Assembly (NCBI RefSeq): GCF_001435575.1
Contig: NZ_AZEA01000010.1
Location: 1-64,000, forward strand
Length of the DNA: 64,000 bases
Direction of reading: 5' to 3'
From: Lentilactobacillus sunkii DSM 19904
Lineage (GTDB): Bacteria > Bacillota > Bacilli > Lactobacillales > Lactobacillaceae
The notes under the pieces were generated by a model. That model made no database searches and had not been told where the DNA came from. It saw only the letters and a program-made list of their open reading frames with translations. The translations under genes and the position numbers were made by a program. This document shows positions 4,447 to 10,225 of this stretch, one piece after another. How positions within the stretch are numbered: position 1 is the stretch's first letter; each line of letters begins with the position of its first letter.

Positions 4447-4860
4447 ATGAAATCAAGAAAACTTCTCTGGCTGATCCTCGCAGCCCTGTCGTTTACCCTG
4501 TTCCTAAGCATCAACTCACAACCAGCAATGGCTAAAAATGGCACTGCCCCAGTCGCACTGCGTGGTACCTGGCACTCAACCACGACTAAATCGCGTTACG
4601 TCATGATCATCCACAAGCATTCCATGTCCAGTTATCGATACAGCAAGAAGCTTGGGCGAATCGTTGATCGTGGCCATGTTTCTCGTAATCGTCTTTACAG
4701 CAAGTATGTCGGCAAAGGTTATTATGAAATTGGTCTAACCCAAACCGACGCAGTATCTGACCTCAAGCCGATGCGTTATCATGGCAAAAAAGTTCTATAT
4801 GAACACTTAGGATTCTTCAACTATGGTCATCGCCACCAAATTTGGTATTCAGGCAAATAA
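4447..4860 (+). CDS. Small secreted protein, paralogue of the next gene
   Basis: Unrecognised secreted protein of 137 residues. A signal peptide (hydrophobic LLWLILAALSFTLFLSI, then QPAMAK) should be cleaved after about residue 29, leaving a basic domain of about 108 residues. It has no membrane anchor or LPXTG, so it is probably released or held by charge. It shares long identical patches with the next gene (LRGxWHxTTTKSRYVMII, EHLGFF). The SD AAAGGAAG precedes ATG. Function unknown; I cannot place it in a named family with confidence. Confidence 0.8.
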   Translation: MKSRKLLWLILAALSFTLFLSINSQPAMAKNGTAPVALRGTWHSTTTKSRYVMIIHKHSMSSYRYSKKLGRIVDRGHVSRNRLYSKYVGKGYYEIGLTQTDAVSDLKPMRYHGKKVLYEHLGFFNYGHRHQIWYSGK

Positions 4861-4896: not shown

Positions 4897-5046
4897 TTTG
4901 GCTTCCAGGCACCCACAAACGCCGTCCCAAAGCCATTTGTCAACTACATCACAAATTAAACATTAAAGTCATAAATACCGAGTCATATTCCACACCAATT
5001 TCCCAATTTCATGATATATTGAATGTGTAAAAAGGGGGAATTAAAA

Positions 5047-5463
5047 ATGAAACTGAAAAAGCTATTTTACCTTGCCATTGCAGCCTTCTCGTTCACTTTA
5101 TTTGTTGGATTAGCTAGTCAACAGCCGGCTATGGCAAAGAGTGCAACTACTCCCACAAGTTTGCGTGGAGCTTGGCACCGAACAACGACTAAGTCACGTT
5201 ATGTCATGATCATCAAGAAACACTCAATGACCGGCTGGCGTTACAGCAAGACACTTCATAAAGTTGTCAATAAGGGCTACGTAAAGCCAAGTCAACTATA
5301 CGTCCAGAAGACTAAGCAAGGATTCTATAACATTGGTTTGAAACAATCAGATGCAATCCAGACATTGAAAGCCGGTCGCTACAAGGGCCAAAAGGTTCTC
5401 ATCGAACACTTGGGATTCTTTGACAAGACTGGTACTCAGCAGCTTTGGTTCAGAGGCAAATAA
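5047..5463 (+). CDS. Small secreted protein, paralogue of the preceding gene
   Basis: A 138-residue secreted protein with the same plan as its neighbour: signal peptide ending near QQPAMAK, then a basic domain beginning SLRGAWHRTTTKSRYVMII and ending QLWFRGK. I chose the start at 5047 because the strong SD AAAGGGGGAA lies eight bases upstream and the signal peptide begins there; an in-frame ATG at 5023 would add eight residues and has no SD. Each copy has its own promoter region and terminator, so the pair is a tandem duplication, not an operon. Function unknown. Confidence 0.8.
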   Translation: MKLKKLFYLAIAAFSFTLFVGLASQQPAMAKSATTPTSLRGAWHRTTTKSRYVMIIKKHSMTGWRYSKTLHKVVNKGYVKPSQLYVQKTKQGFYNIGLKQSDAIQTLKAGRYKGQKVLIEHLGFFDKTGTQQLWFRGK

Positions 5464-6656: not shown

Positions 6657-7991
6657 CTAACCAACTTCACTAGCCTTCAAAGCCCGGTTAATCCGCCCCT
6701 CATCATATAACTTCAAGACAAAGTACATCCCAGCATATATAACCAGCGGAATCCAAACATAATTCCAATTAATCATCGACAAGGTCGCCGCATTCTGTGA
6801 ATGGTTGGCAACATATCCTGACAAGTGGAATAATCCAGCGGTAATTAAGCCGCCAATGCCAAGGCCAAAGTTGACTCCGAAATCATCGGTGGAGGCTAAA
6901 ATTCCTTCCGCCTGAATCCCCATGCTGGCACCGTAACGAATGGTGTCGGCAATCATGATTGAGACCAGCCCGATGATAATCCCGTTACCAATTGAGTTGA
7001 TGAACACACCGGCAAACAGGACCAGTAACCATTTGCCATAAACCCCGACCGCAATAATTGCCTGCCCGGCAAATGCCACCAAAATACCATGGAGCATGGT
7101 CTGCTTCTTACTTTGGCGGTCGGTCATGCGAATAATCAAGAGAACTCCGATCAGCGCGGCTAGTGTAAACCCATTAACCCAAGGGACCAAGCCCTCATTG
7201 CCAACGGTATATTTGAAATAATAAATGGTTGTCTGATTCTTAATTGCCGTGACCAGCCAATACATAAAAATAACAATCGAAATCACGATCCACGGCTGAT
7301 TGTGGCCTAACATTGAAAGCACCACTTTGATCGGTTGATGGGAAATGTGGGAATTTGAAAAGCGTTCCCGTACATGAACGAATGTATTTAAGATCAAAAA
7401 TAATGAAATGATTCCAAAAACGATGATCGTTCCCAGAAACCCCTTCTGTTGGTCACCGTGGCCAAATAACCATACCAACGGCAGCGTGAACACCGCCACA
7501 ACAATTTGCACAGAGCTGCCAAAGAACTGGCGAATGACCCCTAATAGGGTTAACTCGCGGGTATTTTGTGACATGGTCGGCAAAATTGAAGTAATCGGCA
7601 GATTAACCGCCGTATATAGAAAGCCCAGGCCAAGATATGTAACGTACGCCCAAATTAATTTTCCTCCATAAGAAAAGTTGGGTGTCACAAAAGTTAAGAT
7701 CGCAAAGGCCACATATGGGACTGAGTACCAAAGGAAGAACGGCCGGCTCTTGCCAAACCTTGAATGAGTATGGTCAATCATGACAACGATGATAAAGCTT
7801 TCCACCACATCGGCCACCCTGGCAACCACAAATAAGATGGCAACCGCACTTGGGGTTAATCCATACACATCGGTATAGAAAAACAACAGGTACGTCGTCA
7901 TCATTTGAAAAATCAGGTTGTCGGCAGCATCACTTAGTCCGTAACTGATCCGTTCCGGCCAGCGGGTTGACCACTTTGTCGTCGTCTCCAC
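6657..7991 (-). CDS. GPH-family sugar/cation symporter
   Basis: Transports a glycoside, pentoside or hexuronide with a cation. It has twelve hydrophobic segments and the family N terminus RISYGLSDAADNLIFQ. I place the start at the GTG at 7991: the SD AAGGTGAT lies seven bases before it. The upstream GTG at 8015 (eight residues earlier) has no SD, and the ATG at 8000 lies too close to the SD. Length is 444 residues. It stands alone with its own promoter; no sugar-degrading gene is adjacent, so the substrate is unknown. Confidence 0.85.
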   Translation of the reverse strand: METTTKWSTRWPERISYGLSDAADNLIFQMMTTYLLFFYTDVYGLTPSAVAILFVVARVADVVESFIIVVMIDHTHSRFGKSRPFFLWYSVPYVAFAILTFVTPNFSYGGKLIWAYVTYLGLGFLYTAVNLPITSILPTMSQNTRELTLLGVIRQFFGSSVQIVVAVFTLPLVWLFGHGDQQKGFLGTIIVFGIISLFLILNTFVHVRERFSNSHISHQPIKVVLSMLGHNQPWIVISIVIFMYWLVTAIKNQTTIYYFKYTVGNEGLVPWVNGFTLAALIGVLLIIRMTDRQSKKQTMLHGILVAFAGQAIIAVGVYGKWLLVLFAGVFINSIGNGIIIGLVSIMIADTIRYGASMGIQAEGILASTDDFGVNFGLGIGGLITAGLFHLSGYVANHSQNAATLSMINWNYVWIPLVIYAGMYFVLKLYDEGRINRALKASEVG

Positions 7992-8037
7992 AATTACCAT
8001 CACCTTTGGATTCACACGTCATTTATTAGTTGATTCA

Positions 8038-8066
8038 ATTGTACACAGCTTTTTGATGGACAACAA
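8038..8066 (-). promoter_or_regulatory. Promoter of GPH symporter
   Basis: Reading leftwards: -35 TTGTTG (8066-8061), a 17-base spacer and -10 TACAAT (8043-8038), about 45 bases before the chosen GTG. It lies beyond the terminator of the upstream small RNA, so the symporter need not depend on that RNA's promoter. Confidence 0.5.
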
Positions 8067-8087
8067 AGATTTGGCTGCCGAGAGCAA

Positions 8088-8246
8088 CAAAAAAGCCCTG
8101 CTCGCATACAGGACTTTTTCAAGGGAAATTCATATTGAGGGGTATTTCATGAAGCTAAGAAATTGTTGGGGTTTCTTAGTAATTCTTGTTGGGGTAATCT
8201 CCTAATCCGGCAGGAATGCAAATGCATCATGCCTTCATATTTGATT
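8088..8246 (-). ncRNA. Candidate csRNA-like small RNA A
   Basis: Predicted transcript of about 158 bases from a CiaR-type promoter to a terminator. In order it has: a 5' stem-loop (GGCA/TGCC enclosing ATGCA/TGCAT); a hairpin CTAAGAAA-loop-TTTCTTAG at 8179-8155 with CCCCAACAA in the loop; a TTCAT/ATGAA hairpin (8153-8129) with ACCCCUC in the loop; and a terminator stem CAGGACTT/AAGCCCTG (8116-8093, given as + strand arms) with a U run. No convincing protein gene lies within it. The promoter type, size, C-rich loops and layout resemble streptococcal csRNAs. Expression is unproven. It might instead be an attenuated leader of the symporter gene. Confidence 0.6.
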
Positions 8247-8252
8247 GTTATA

Positions 8253-8285
8253 AGAATACCGCACTTAACTTAAATGGACCTTAAA
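8253..8285 (-). promoter_or_regulatory. CiaR-type promoter A
   Basis: Leftward: direct repeat TTTAAG-gtcca-TTTAAG (8285-8269), exactly ten bases, then -10 TATTCT (8258-8253). There is no -35 hexamer apart from the repeat, as expected for activation by an OmpR-type regulator. CiaR sites of streptococci have the consensus TTTAAG-N5-TTTAAG at this spacing. Confidence 0.65.
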
Positions 8286-8321
8286 ATTCAAAAAGAACTG
8301 AATTCATCTCATTTTTTGATC

Positions 8322-8795
8322 AAAAAAGAAAGTCCTGCTCGCATACAGGACTTCCTAAGGGAATTTTATATTTCATATTGAGGGGTAATTCTTGTTCATT
8401 TCATATTGAGGGGTATTTCATGAAGTTAAGAATTTTATTTTGTTGGGTAATTCTTTGTAATTATTTGAGGGGTGAATATTTTATTGTGAGACGCTAGTGA
8501 TTCTGAACTTTCTCCATGGCATCAGTCCTTTCAATGTTGGCGTGAGTTTCAGCGCACGGTCTTAAGTTAACTCATGTGGTACTTTGGTTTTAGTAGCAGC
8601 TCCACACAACAAACCTCGTATGCCGGTTGGAACTGTGAATCTCATATTTAAACTTGGATTTTCTTTGAGTTTTCATTATTAGGTAATTGATCCTTCCTTT
8701 CGCATATCAATTTAGTCTGGAGCTGATTGGAAATTATTTAGGGGTTGGTACAGTTGTTCGAGTTGTTTGATGTTTACCTCCTCTCTTATTTGATT
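8322..8795 (-). ncRNA. Candidate csRNA-like RNA B with tandem C-rich hairpins
   Basis: Predicted leftward transcript of about 470 bases from CiaR-type promoter B to a terminator at 8353-8330 whose 24-base hairpin matches that of RNA A except for one base. Its 3' part (8455-8361) holds three hairpins with C-rich loops: AAGAATT/AATTCTT (8455-8428), TTCAT/ATGAA (8424-8400) and GAATT/AATTC (8391-8361). The 25 bases at 8400-8424 are identical to 8129-8153 in RNA A. The 5' part has only tiny reading frames (27-28 codons) with weak support. The full length is longer than known csRNAs, so a processed or internally initiated short form is possible. Confidence 0.5.
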
Positions 8796-8801
8796 GTCTA
8801 T

Positions 8802-8834
8802 AGATTATCTCATTGAACTTAAATGAAGCTTAAA
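8802..8834 (-). promoter_or_regulatory. CiaR-type promoter B
   Basis: Leftward: TTTAAG-cttca-TTTAAG (8834-8818), ten bases, then -10 TAATCT (8807-8802). Beyond the motif it is similar to promoter A, including the shared ACAATCAAATA after the -10, so the two units are duplicates. An AGGAGG sits downstream, but no ATG, GTG or TTG start follows it at a sensible distance. Confidence 0.65.
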
Positions 8835-8856
8835 TGAGAAAATAAAATCAAATTGT

Positions 8857-9294
8857 TTATTCGACTGCCAATCCTCCTTGGTAGCTGCCGACCTGGGTGC
8901 CAACAACTTCAATAGTGTAATTGCCTTTTTCAACCGGCAATGAACCGTTGGCATTTCCAGAATCAACATCGATAGTTTTGTAGACACTGCCGTTTTTATA
9001 GATCCTAATTTTAAATGGTTGATTGCTCTCGTCACCGCGTGCTTCAATTTCTGTCACATGGTACTTGAGGACGGTGTTTTCTTGGAGAACTTCAACTGTT
9101 TCTTTAAATTTATCGGCCTGACTTGTGGATTTAGTCTGCCGATGTTTGAATGGGTTATCCTGAGCTGAAAGAGCCGCATTTCTAACGGCTTCGGTTCGAA
9201 CCGTGGAAGCGTCAGCCACAATCGTTGGTAAAAAAGTTGTCCCAAAGATTGTCATGGCTGCGCCAAGTGTGTACCCGAATTTTTTAATATCCAA
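8857..9294 (-). CDS. Small secreted protein of a CiaR-type promoter
   Basis: A 145-residue secreted protein of no family I recognise. TTG start at 9294 with SD AAGGGAT seven bases upstream; the signal peptide (about 1-28, TLGAAMTIFGTTFLP then ADAS) starts there. The mature part has a charged linker (HRQTKSTSQADKFKETVE), then a probable beta domain (VLKYHVTEIEARG ... FKIRIYKNGSVYKTIDV ... GNYTIEVVG). There is no anchor. Its promoter (9406-9438) carries the same direct repeat as the two RNA promoters beside it, which places it in one regulon with them. Confidence 0.75.
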   Translation of the reverse strand: MDIKKFGYTLGAAMTIFGTTFLPTIVADASTVRTEAVRNAALSAQDNPFKHRQTKSTSQADKFKETVEVLQENTVLKYHVTEIEARGDESNQPFKIRIYKNGSVYKTIDVDSGNANGSLPVEKGNYTIEVVGTQVGSYQGGLAVE

Positions 9295-9405
9295 TCTATC
9301 AATCCCTTCTTGGTTAAGAATGTGTTGGTCTGATATTTAATGGTTGATATCAGTCATGCAGGTTGTGATTCGTTGGCATCGCTCCTTTCGTTATTGAATG
9401 ATCTT

Positions 9406-9438
9406 AGAATAATGGCGGGAGCTTAAACGCAACTTAAA
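9406..9438 (-). promoter_or_regulatory. CiaR-type promoter C
   Basis: Leftward: TTTAAG-ttgcg-TTTAAG (9438-9422), ten bases, -10 TATTCT (9411-9406). It precedes the small secreted protein with a leader of about 105 bases. The leader contains AAAGGAGCG followed by a nine-codon frame (9379-9350, ATG to TGA) that may be a leader peptide or chance. Confidence 0.65.
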
Positions 9439-9518
9439 ATCGGAAACCAATTCAAGAAAGTGCACTTTCCTTAATTAAAACGCAAACCTTTTTAGGAAAT
9501 CGCAATGATTGAATATAA

Positions 9519-9546
9519 AAAGCCATGATCATAGAGATCATGGCTG
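9519..9546 (-). terminator. Terminator of NAD(P)-binding protein gene
   Basis: Perfect hairpin GCCATGATC-loop-GATCATGGC with a U run on the leftward strand, 38 bases after the stop of the SDR-like gene. Confidence 0.8.
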
Positions 9547-9583
9547 AAAGTATTTAATGCTATATTGTTGAACCTTTTGAGCG

Positions 9584-10225
9584 TTAATACCAACTTGGCT
9601 TATCGCCGTCAGTATTTGGTTGATTAACACCCACCGAATGGTCGATTTCCTGACTTGGGTCATTGATCAGGCTGACCACAAAGTCGGCAATACTCTTTCT
9701 CGAGACTTCGGTCCCCTTGAAAGCTTCACCTTTCTGAGTTGTTTCGTAGCTGACAATATCTTTATTTGAGAGCCAGGCCGGTCGAATAATGGTGTAATCC
9801 AAGTCCGAATTTTCAATAACTTTAGCTGCAGCCGCATATGTTTCCAAATAACCACCGTCAAGTTGTTGATGATTCCATTTGCCAAAGTTTCCAGGAACCT
9901 CATCATAAATGCCTAAGGTTGAAATCCAAATCAAGCGCTGAAGTGTCGTTCGATCAATCGCCCCGACTACCGCCTTGGCTTCATCTTCAATATTCTTACC
10001 ACTGAGATTGGCATAGACAATGTCGATCCCATCCAACGCCTTGATGATTGCCTGCTTATCAGTGGCATCCCCTTCCACAACGGTTTCTCGTTTGGGGTCA
10101 GTCACTTTCAAACGACTGGCGTTTCTCAAGAAAAGTGTCAGGTGATGGTCAGTCTGGTCGAGGAGCTGCTTTTCAACCAACTTTGCAATCTGACCATTTG
10201 CCCCTAAAATCAATACATTTGCCAT
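9584..10225 (-). CDS. NAD(P)H-binding, NmrA/SDR-like protein
   Basis: A 213-residue protein with an N-terminal Rossmann fold: glycine-rich LGANGQIAKLV (about 7-17), an acidic residue motif GDATD, then IVYANLSG. The YxxxK pair of classical reductases is not clear, so it fits the atypical SDR a5/NmrA-type group (NAD(P)H-binding). Such proteins act as small oxidoreductases or redox sensors; the substrate is unknown. It has its own terminator and is a single-gene unit. Confidence 0.85.
   Translation of the reverse strand: MANVLILGANGQIAKLVEKQLLDQTDHHLTLFLRNASRLKVTDPKRETVVEGDATDKQAIIKALDGIDIVYANLSGKNIEDEAKAVVGAIDRTTLQRLIWISTLGIYDEVPGNFGKWNHQQLDGGYLETYAAAAKVIENSDLDYTIIRPAWLSNKDIVSYETTQKGEAFKGTEVSRKSIADFVVSLINDPSQEIDHSVGVNQPNTDGDKPSWY

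Follow-up and report, generated by a model that had tools for sequence, protein, structure and literature searches.

We describe here a putative CiaR regulon in a lactobacillus, centered on the first 64,000 nucleotides of contig NZ_AZEA01000010.1 of Lentilactobacillus sunkii DSM 19904 (hereafter ‘the window’, meaning this whole stretch of DNA). Three leftward promoters with the direct repeat TTTAAG-N5-TTTAAG are packed into 1.2 kb of the window, and two of them head predicted transcripts that resemble, in whole or in the tail, the csRNAs, the small RNAs driven by CiaR in streptococci. We consider it likely that CiaR regulons are not confined to streptococci, that the Lactobacillaceae possess one which includes csRNA-like RNAs, and that the window holds its RNA-rich core; the part of this reading that concerns the regulator and its sites is strongly supported, and the part that concerns the csRNA-like RNAs moderately so. 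The evidence comprises the repeats (‘boxes’), their link to ciaR across genera, homologs of CiaR and CiaH, a conserved mini-protein and an enrichment of C-rich words, from which we infer CiaR binding, activation, transcription, RNA pairing and targets. Genomes (G), genera (g), loci (L) and contigs of the L. sunkii genome (C) are given by our own handles where they need to be told apart.

In the proposed mechanism, a CiaH-like kinase would phosphorylate CiaR, probably on envelope stress, and CiaR would then bind TTTAAG-N5-TTTAAG in place of a -35 element, activating the three leftward promoters. P1 would yield RNA A, whose unpaired C-rich stretches could pair with G-rich Shine-Dalgarno (SD) regions, and in one unit also with the start codon, blocking translation of the target. 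P2 would yield RNA B, in which a conserved 28-codon mini-protein is followed by repeats of the same pairing unit, and P3 would express a small secreted protein.

The promoters and their boxes

A scan of the 64 kb for the direct repeat, tolerating at most one mismatch, returned three exact copies on the minus strand and no further ones, while dinucleotide shuffles gave a mean of 0.70 and reached three in 6 of 100 cases. At all three, the distance from repeat to -10 hexamer is exactly 10 bases:

8269-8285, minus strand: CiaR box of P1, TTTAAGGTCCATTTAAG; -10 TATTCT at 8253-8258, predicted start ~8246
8818-8834, minus strand: CiaR box of P2, TTTAAGCTTCATTTAAG; -10 TAATCT at 8802-8807, predicted start ~8795
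9422-9438, minus strand: CiaR box of P3, TTTAAGTTGCGTTTAAG; -10 TATTCT at 9406-9411, predicted start ~9399

The promoter of the streptococcal CiaR regulon is described as NTTAAG-N5-TTTAAG with an invariant G and 10 nt to the -10 element (PMC3091779, seen in part), a rule with which the window promoters conform. Over all 79 contigs of the 2.69-Mb genome, the box followed by N10 and TANNNT occurs at six exact places, three of them inside the window, against none for the reversed pattern; with one mismatch allowed, the counts are 11 and 0. Relatives that keep the locus also retain the boxes (G001, G004, G008, G013, G014, G016). The original prediction, made from the letters of this DNA alone, had described three exact repeats ten bases from a -10 hexamer, and this description holds at every promoter; it also withstands the comparison with relatives that keep the locus, where a loss of the repeats would have counted against it. 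The near-identical terminators that it ascribed to the two head transcripts are likewise there, with 90% identity over 31 nt between those of RNA A and RNA B.

A CiaR ortholog and a CiaH-like kinase

Eight OmpR-type regulators of the genome match PF00486. One of these, on contig C34, shares 58% identity over 222 aa with CiaR of Streptococcus pseudopneumoniae, as against 33% for the VanR-like regulator on contig C45. When named genomes were scanned with an alignment of 13 family members as the query, the best 80 matches included Companilactobacillus nantensis (59%) and streptococcal CiaR (58 and 55%), the further matches listed being a clostridial sequence at 48% and others at no more than 43%. 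A 35-row tree unites three clostridial sequences and the two streptococcal CiaR with the CiaR-like proteins of the family in a single clade with 100/100 support, outside which fall all six of the other L. sunkii regulators that were included; the atypical L018 was left out. The tree also agrees with a place of this genome in the Lactobacillaceae. The recognition helix V[VI]EVY[MI]SN[LVI]R[KR]K is present in all 46 intact frames among 47 CiaR-like loci, and the frameshifted 47th (G005) carries it as well; the streptococcal counterpart reads VVEVY[VI]SK[VI]RKKL (PMC3091779, Table 1). In NCBIfam, no CiaR model appeared among the best 25 of 36 matches for the CiaR-like protein, and orthology was therefore decided by tree and pairwise comparison. 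The ciaR of G002 was for a time taken for a broken gene, a view dropped since its stop is the natural end.

Directly after ciaR, and beginning within its end by a 4-nt overlap, lies a kinase gene (L019:1746-3059) whose product is 32% identical over 442 aa to streptococcal CiaH, with the N-terminal region covered. The CiaR/CiaH pair that the original prediction had pointed to as worth searching for is thus present, and tree, identity and recognition helix all mark the OmpR-type regulator that it inferred as an ortholog of CiaR.

The box and ciaR across genomes

Of 201 genomes sampled from the family, 43 carry the exact pattern, which has 91 places in total, compared with five for the reversed control. 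In 14 genomes of three genera, none of them the window's own, an exact box and the beginning of the ciaR match are 53-111 bp apart, the box pointing into ciaR in five genomes of g23 and away from it in eight of g4 and one of g22; g4 is Companilactobacillus, as judged from near-identity to C. nantensis in the tree. This placement lends the predicted binding of CiaR indirect support. Of the 43 genomes that have an exact box, 37 encode a CiaR-like protein of at least 55% identity, as do 20 of the 158 without a box, and CiaR is present in each of the seven genera that have at least two box-bearing genomes. Within the window's genus, a relaxed pattern gives 105 places, against nine in the control, and reaches 23 of 24 genomes. 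G012 alone has no relaxed box, and G012 alone gives no CiaR match at E 1e-60; it is small and 88% complete.

Together, the CiaR ortholog, its CiaH-like neighbor, the boxes beside ciaR and the recurrence of csRNA-like transcripts (see below) indicate that the regulator is homologous to CiaR. The original prediction had spoken of an ‘analogous module’; for the regulator this is supported and can be put more strongly. Three corrections on the side of the RNAs are given below.

RNA A and RNA B

The transcripts predicted from P1 and P2 contain the following features:

8088-8246, minus strand: RNA A, csRNA-like, ~159 nt, from P1 to a terminator at 8090-8119, predicted from sequence
8129-8154, minus strand: pairing unit of RNA A, CUUCAUGAAAUACCCCUCAAUAUGAA, antisense to a translation start of the form GAGGGG-6 nt-AUG
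8322-8795, minus strand: RNA B, mini-protein mRNA with a csRNA-like tail, ~474 nt, from P2; terminator at 8327-8356 by terminator scan
8590-8676, minus strand: small open reading frame (ORF) of 28 aa, MKTQRKSKFKYEIHSSNRHTRFVVWSCY, start codon uncertain, conserved in 13 genomes
8370-8480, minus strand: tail of RNA B with repeated C-rich units at 8378-8393, 8406-8421, degenerate 8440-8455, and 8465-8480

RNA A contains the C-rich stretches ACCCCAACA (in two copies) and UACCCCUCAA, and its core unit complements GAGGGG-6 nt-AUG exactly. Its terminator was overlooked by the terminator scan and revealed by folding, and the fold of the RNA, with a z-score of -2.76, surpasses all 200 shuffles in stability. 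A single homolog of nearly full length was found (G008, 89%), bodies similar to the 3' half occur in 11 of the 24 genus genomes, and the promoter part alone is matched in three more. The ORF scan returned an SD-led 26-codon frame in RNA A, whose G008 counterpart has 24 codons from a TTG. Compared by eye between the two, the last ~16 codons are identical, including synonymous positions, while changes in the first codons alter amino acids. From these two sequences, the pattern looks like constraint on the RNA rather than on a protein.

RNA B departs from the original prediction, which had seen no convincing protein gene in either head transcript, given that a 28-aa ORF conserved in 13 genomes runs through it. 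These 13 genomes of the genus include the window's, and the ORFs have 27-42 codons with the family pattern ...KFKYD...[RK][FILV][VIA]VW[SR]CY, ending ...RFVVWSCY in the window. Pooled pN/pS over the set is 0.43, and third codon positions are the most variable in the last nine codons (14 extra states vs 7 and 5). The ORFs were gathered by a pattern for their final codons, W-[SR]-C-Y-stop, to which the KFKY part does not belong, so the constancy of the end is partly by construction; seven of the 13 were also recovered independently in a pattern-free ORF scan. In NCBIfam, the ORF has no match up to E 1. Its ribosome site lies unusually far, ~15 nt, from the ATG, and the mini-protein may therefore start at an upstream non-ATG codon, as it does at TTG in G008. 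Judged by its sequence, the mini-protein represents a putative new family inside CiaR-box transcripts, one that the original prediction had overlooked.

Downstream of this ORF, the number of C-rich units in the tail varies among species, and CUCAAUA is preserved in all nine aligned tails of RNAs A and B. This alignment contains G001 and G016 rows with wrong coordinates, and it was used solely for the conserved block, with no covariation drawn from it. A tentative possibility, to which we give somewhat lower odds than even, is that RNA B has a dual function: a CiaR-induced mini-protein mRNA would carry an expandable anti-SD array in its 3' part, delivering peptide and silencing from one stress transcript, with RNA A as a stand-alone copy of the tail.

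csRNA-like transcripts as a class

Sequence downstream of the box was read for 106 distinct sites, a non-random sample since all are of one family and the loci were fetched for their boxes. Two sets of RNAs were drawn from these reads. The first kept those with a terminator inside 290 nt and with every SD-led ORF in the 500 nt read shorter than 60 aa, giving 28 RNAs (25 non-redundant); in the second, the ORF filter (40 aa) was confined to the transcript, giving 43 RNAs (27 non-redundant). CCCCT had the top 5-mer enrichment score in the first set, being present in 14 of 25 RNAs versus 6.0 in shuffles (maximum 11 in 300 shuffles). In the second set, C[CT]CC occurs 73 times against 35.2 in dinucleotide shuffles (maximum 47), a twofold excess, and is present in 20 of the 27 RNAs compared with 14.8 (maximum 20); a G-rich control (GGGG or GGAG) stays at chance (5 of 27 vs 5.1). 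The C-rich words have a mean predicted unpaired probability of 0.88, versus 0.79 in shuffled RNAs. By enrichment and by predicted accessibility, these RNAs hold the predicted unpaired anti-SD sequence that characterizes csRNAs, and such transcripts recur behind boxes in several genera.

A further putative member lies on contig C24, with the motifs ACUCCUCC, CCCCUCC and CCCCUC. This RNA is found in six of 24 genus genomes, including the window's, a further match in G012 being a 28-nt stub, and ACTCCTCC is invariant across the six species. Four of its 36 predicted pairs are changed on both sides, compared with 0-2 in six slid versions; in shuffles the mean of such double changes is 1.2 and 3 of 500 reach four, with six rows only in the alignment. 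RNA A (~159 nt) and the C24 RNA (~150 nt) fall, by their sequences, within the length range, terminator and intergenic position of csRNAs (predicted at 51-202 nt in streptococci; PMC3091779), and with their terminators and unpaired C-rich stretches both look like csRNAs. RNA B lies outside that range, with ~474 nt and a conserved ORF. Rfam gave no match up to E 1 for window positions 7900-9600 and none at the gathering score for eight loci.

Candidate targets

The pattern TGAGGGGT-N3-8-ATG occurs at seven places in the genome, two being found with the reversed control. Two of the seven are the antisense of the pairing units themselves, leaving five non-self places, of which two head genes recognized by eye, a thrE-like threonine/serine exporter and an nhaP-like sodium/proton antiporter; nothing was recognized at the other three. 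The thrE-like and nhaP-like genes are candidates only. Duplex energies between RNA and target were not used, as they are dominated by the terminator. For the pneumococcal csRNAs, six targets have been reported, namely comC, four transporter genes and a DNA-binding protein, comC being paired around its translation initiation region (PMC4507080, seen in part).

Weighing the evidence

Several observations weigh against a CiaR regulon with csRNA-like RNAs. On the side of the regulator, six of the 43 box genomes lack a CiaR-like protein of 55% identity, and six of 40 genera (g12, g13, g14, g21, g32, g36) have CiaR-like proteins and no exact box in the sampled genomes. At genus level the association of box and CiaR is weak (9/5 vs 6/20, p 0.017; 0.043 minus one partial hit), and the family-wide relation is confounded in part by kinship. 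The order of branches inside the CiaR clade, which also holds the three clostridial sequences, is not settled by the tree. In G005, ciaR is frameshifted and eight relaxed boxes are present; since the frameshift stands in a draft contig, nothing follows from it for a comparison with broken ciaR. On the side of the RNAs, CCTCC by itself shows no clear enrichment (7 of 25 vs 3.8, maximum 9), the C24 RNA does not stand out by its fold, whose stability 12 of 200 shuffles attain, and RNA A has the SD-led frame described above. The streptococcal nonamer [A/C]UCCUAAA[A/C], searched by its first eight positions, occurs in none of the 27 RNAs, and an anti-AUG in the right spacing, which the units of RNA A and RNA B do have, in four of 27 versus 2.5 by chance; in these two respects, the analogy to csRNAs put forward in the original prediction needs correction. 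The nonamer is also missing from csRNA14 and the Streptococcus suis csRNAs (PMC3091779). Finally, the SDs of the candidate targets (GAGGGG or AGGGGTGAA) are common to the closest species and lost in others, including some that hold a csRNA-like RNA, so kinship explains the sharing equally well.

If the C-rich stretches were incidental or part of local structure, the locus would reduce to a CiaR-controlled operon of mini-protein and secreted protein, with the RNAs as messages or leaders. We regard this as improbable, if worth keeping in mind: RNA B does encode a conserved mini-protein, RNA A does contain an SD-led frame, ordinary genes stand behind other boxes and no target is established. Such an operon would not readily account for the C24 RNA, which has no SD-led frame by scan of four sequences, ends in a terminator and keeps ACUCCUCC in six of six species; nor would it readily account for the nine-of-nine preservation of CUCAAUA in the tails of RNAs A and B or for the twofold excess of C[CT]CC over dinucleotide shuffles in the 27 non-redundant RNAs. 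It appears very unlikely that the boxes are owned by a different regulator of the OmpR type, for instance the VanR-like protein of contig C45. An exact box does lie ~157 bp upstream of the VanR-like gene, an arrangement that recurs in the relatives L106 and L281; however, boxes adjoin ciaR in 14 genomes of three other genera, the recognition helix matches that of CiaR, and G012, lacking CiaR, has no box.

Type I toxin-antitoxin loci have an RNA antisense to the ribosome binding site (RBS) and ATG of short hydrophobic frames, and the plus strand opposite the pairing units can be read in this way:

8135-8205 and 8407-8497, plus strand: short hydrophobic frames with a GAGGGG ribosome site (MKLRNCWGFLVILVGVIS; MKLRILFCWVILCNYLRGEYFIVRR), opposite RNAs A and B

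RNAs A and B would then be antisense antitoxins. The spacing from RBS to ATG fits, the frames are 10-27 aa long and, in the close species, hydrophobic, and TGAGGGGTATTTCATG is limited to these two among the seven genome places mentioned above. However, only 4-6 aa of the frame are left in L035, L036 and L042, and in L030 and L043 it is non-hydrophobic, with the complement of RBS and start codon kept in both groups, and retention of this complement in a shrunken frame favors pairing over coding. Upstream on the plus strand, the sole promoter-like match lies at 7967-7994 and agrees at 9 of 12 positions, a kind of match that is no commoner than in shuffles. We hence see scant probability in a toxin-antitoxin pair and favor the CiaR regulon with csRNA-like RNAs.

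The secreted protein and other putative regulon members

Downstream of P3 and elsewhere in the genome, boxes precede protein-coding genes, including:

8857-9294, minus strand: small secreted protein, 145 aa, TTG start, behind P3; signal peptide by eye
L052:3263-3730, contig C24: secreted-protein paralog (by eye) with its own box CTTAAG-N5-ATTAAG and TATTCT, ~1.7 kb downstream of the C24 RNA box

The original prediction had the third promoter head a small secreted protein gene, and the 145-aa ORF, running from 9294 to 8857 with a signal-peptide-like start by eye, agrees with it. The protein has no Pfam match, nor has the C24 paralog, and paralog-like secreted proteins recur after boxes in relatives. 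Between the secreted gene and P2 no terminator was found by a scan that also missed the RNA A terminator, and P3 transcripts may therefore run into RNA B. In the 5' leader of P3 (9393-9350, minus strand), an SD standing by itself is followed up by a short frame (AACGAAAGGAGCRATGCCA...), a feature that relatives show too. Elsewhere in the window, two similar small secreted proteins stand in tandem on the plus strand (4447-4860 and 5023-5463), followed by a CAP-like protein (Pfam below cut-off), by an MFS gene.

On contig C3, a box with one mismatch goes with a gene for a 36-codon membrane-like peptide (by eye), with CUCCUCC segments on either side, and a similar 37-codon frame stands behind a box in G018 (L335). 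The exact box on contig C45 (L050) precedes the VanR-like regulator, a kinase and a D-Ala-D-Ala carboxypeptidase-like gene (by eye); as boxes ahead of the VanR-like gene are seen in L106 and L281 too, a two-component cascade is possible. Contig C12 has a box-associated 86-aa protein without a Pfam match. Weaker one-mismatch places precede genes for an acyltransferase and an ASCH protein, and another box with one mismatch, facing a GtrA-type gene, is 112 bp away from the ciaR of the window's genome. The one-mismatch place at C12:77849 was taken as chance, as it has no invariant G (PMC3091779) and faces the antisense of a gene. In L305 and L317 (G007, G015), at sites apart from ciaR, a box heads a frame that resembles, by eye, the N-terminal part of the CiaH-like kinase.

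Relation to known systems

In the portions of PMC3091779 drawn on here, CiaH homologues are found in streptococci and not in Lactobacillus, and a 2021 review (PMC8186281, seen in part) places CiaRH in no genus except Streptococcus. Zuniga et al. 2011 assigned a ‘Cia’ cluster to L. brevis, L. casei, Leuconostoc and Oenococcus (Table 3, PMC3040137), which was not supported in their response regulator tree. The sections of PMC12735751 that were available mention CiaRH of streptococci only, and lactobacillus terms do not occur in PMC8317062. Judged by title and start of abstract, none of the matches listed from the open-licence literature is a paper describing csRNAs, CiaR or the box in lactobacilli.

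If our reading is correct, CiaR, its box and its small-RNA arm are older than the streptococci or have spread beyond them, contrary to the 2021 review (PMC8186281), and food bacteria would offer a comparative system for tracing how a regulon gains and multiplies its riboregulators and how these come to act on other targets. Our reading would also predict a new mini-protein family and a lactic acid bacterial envelope-stress network comprising the secreted proteins, the VanR-like system with its D-Ala-D-Ala carboxypeptidase-like gene (by eye), GtrA and a glycosyltransferase-like gene.

The LhrC RNAs of Listeria have C-rich pairing motifs, with a regulator and a box other than CiaR's. As likened by description, they are similar in that an envelope-stress two-component system, LisRK, drives multicopy small RNAs (PMC4132741, seen in part). 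The ‘Cia’ ortholog cluster of OmpR/IIIA systems in Lactobacillaceae belongs to the same two-component family; it is a gene census that, in the portions of PMC3040137 used, comes without binding site, regulon or RNAs.

Also among the closest known systems are the Streptococcus csRNAs (ccnA-E), which have a homologous regulator, the same box with the same 10-nt spacing, a factor-independent terminator, several siblings per genome and C-rich unpaired stretches able to pair with SD regions (PMC3091779). In contrast, the Lactobacillaceae RNAs lack the [A/C]UCCUAAA nonamer and have no general anti-AUG, their pairing units come in tandem, and RNA B joins ~474 nt to a mini-protein where 51-202 nt are predicted for the streptococcal RNAs. 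A dual-function transcript of mini-protein and riboregulator is not described for streptococcal csRNAs in the parts of the literature consulted. This fused transcript, as predicted from sequence, is what is most novel in the Lactobacillaceae case.

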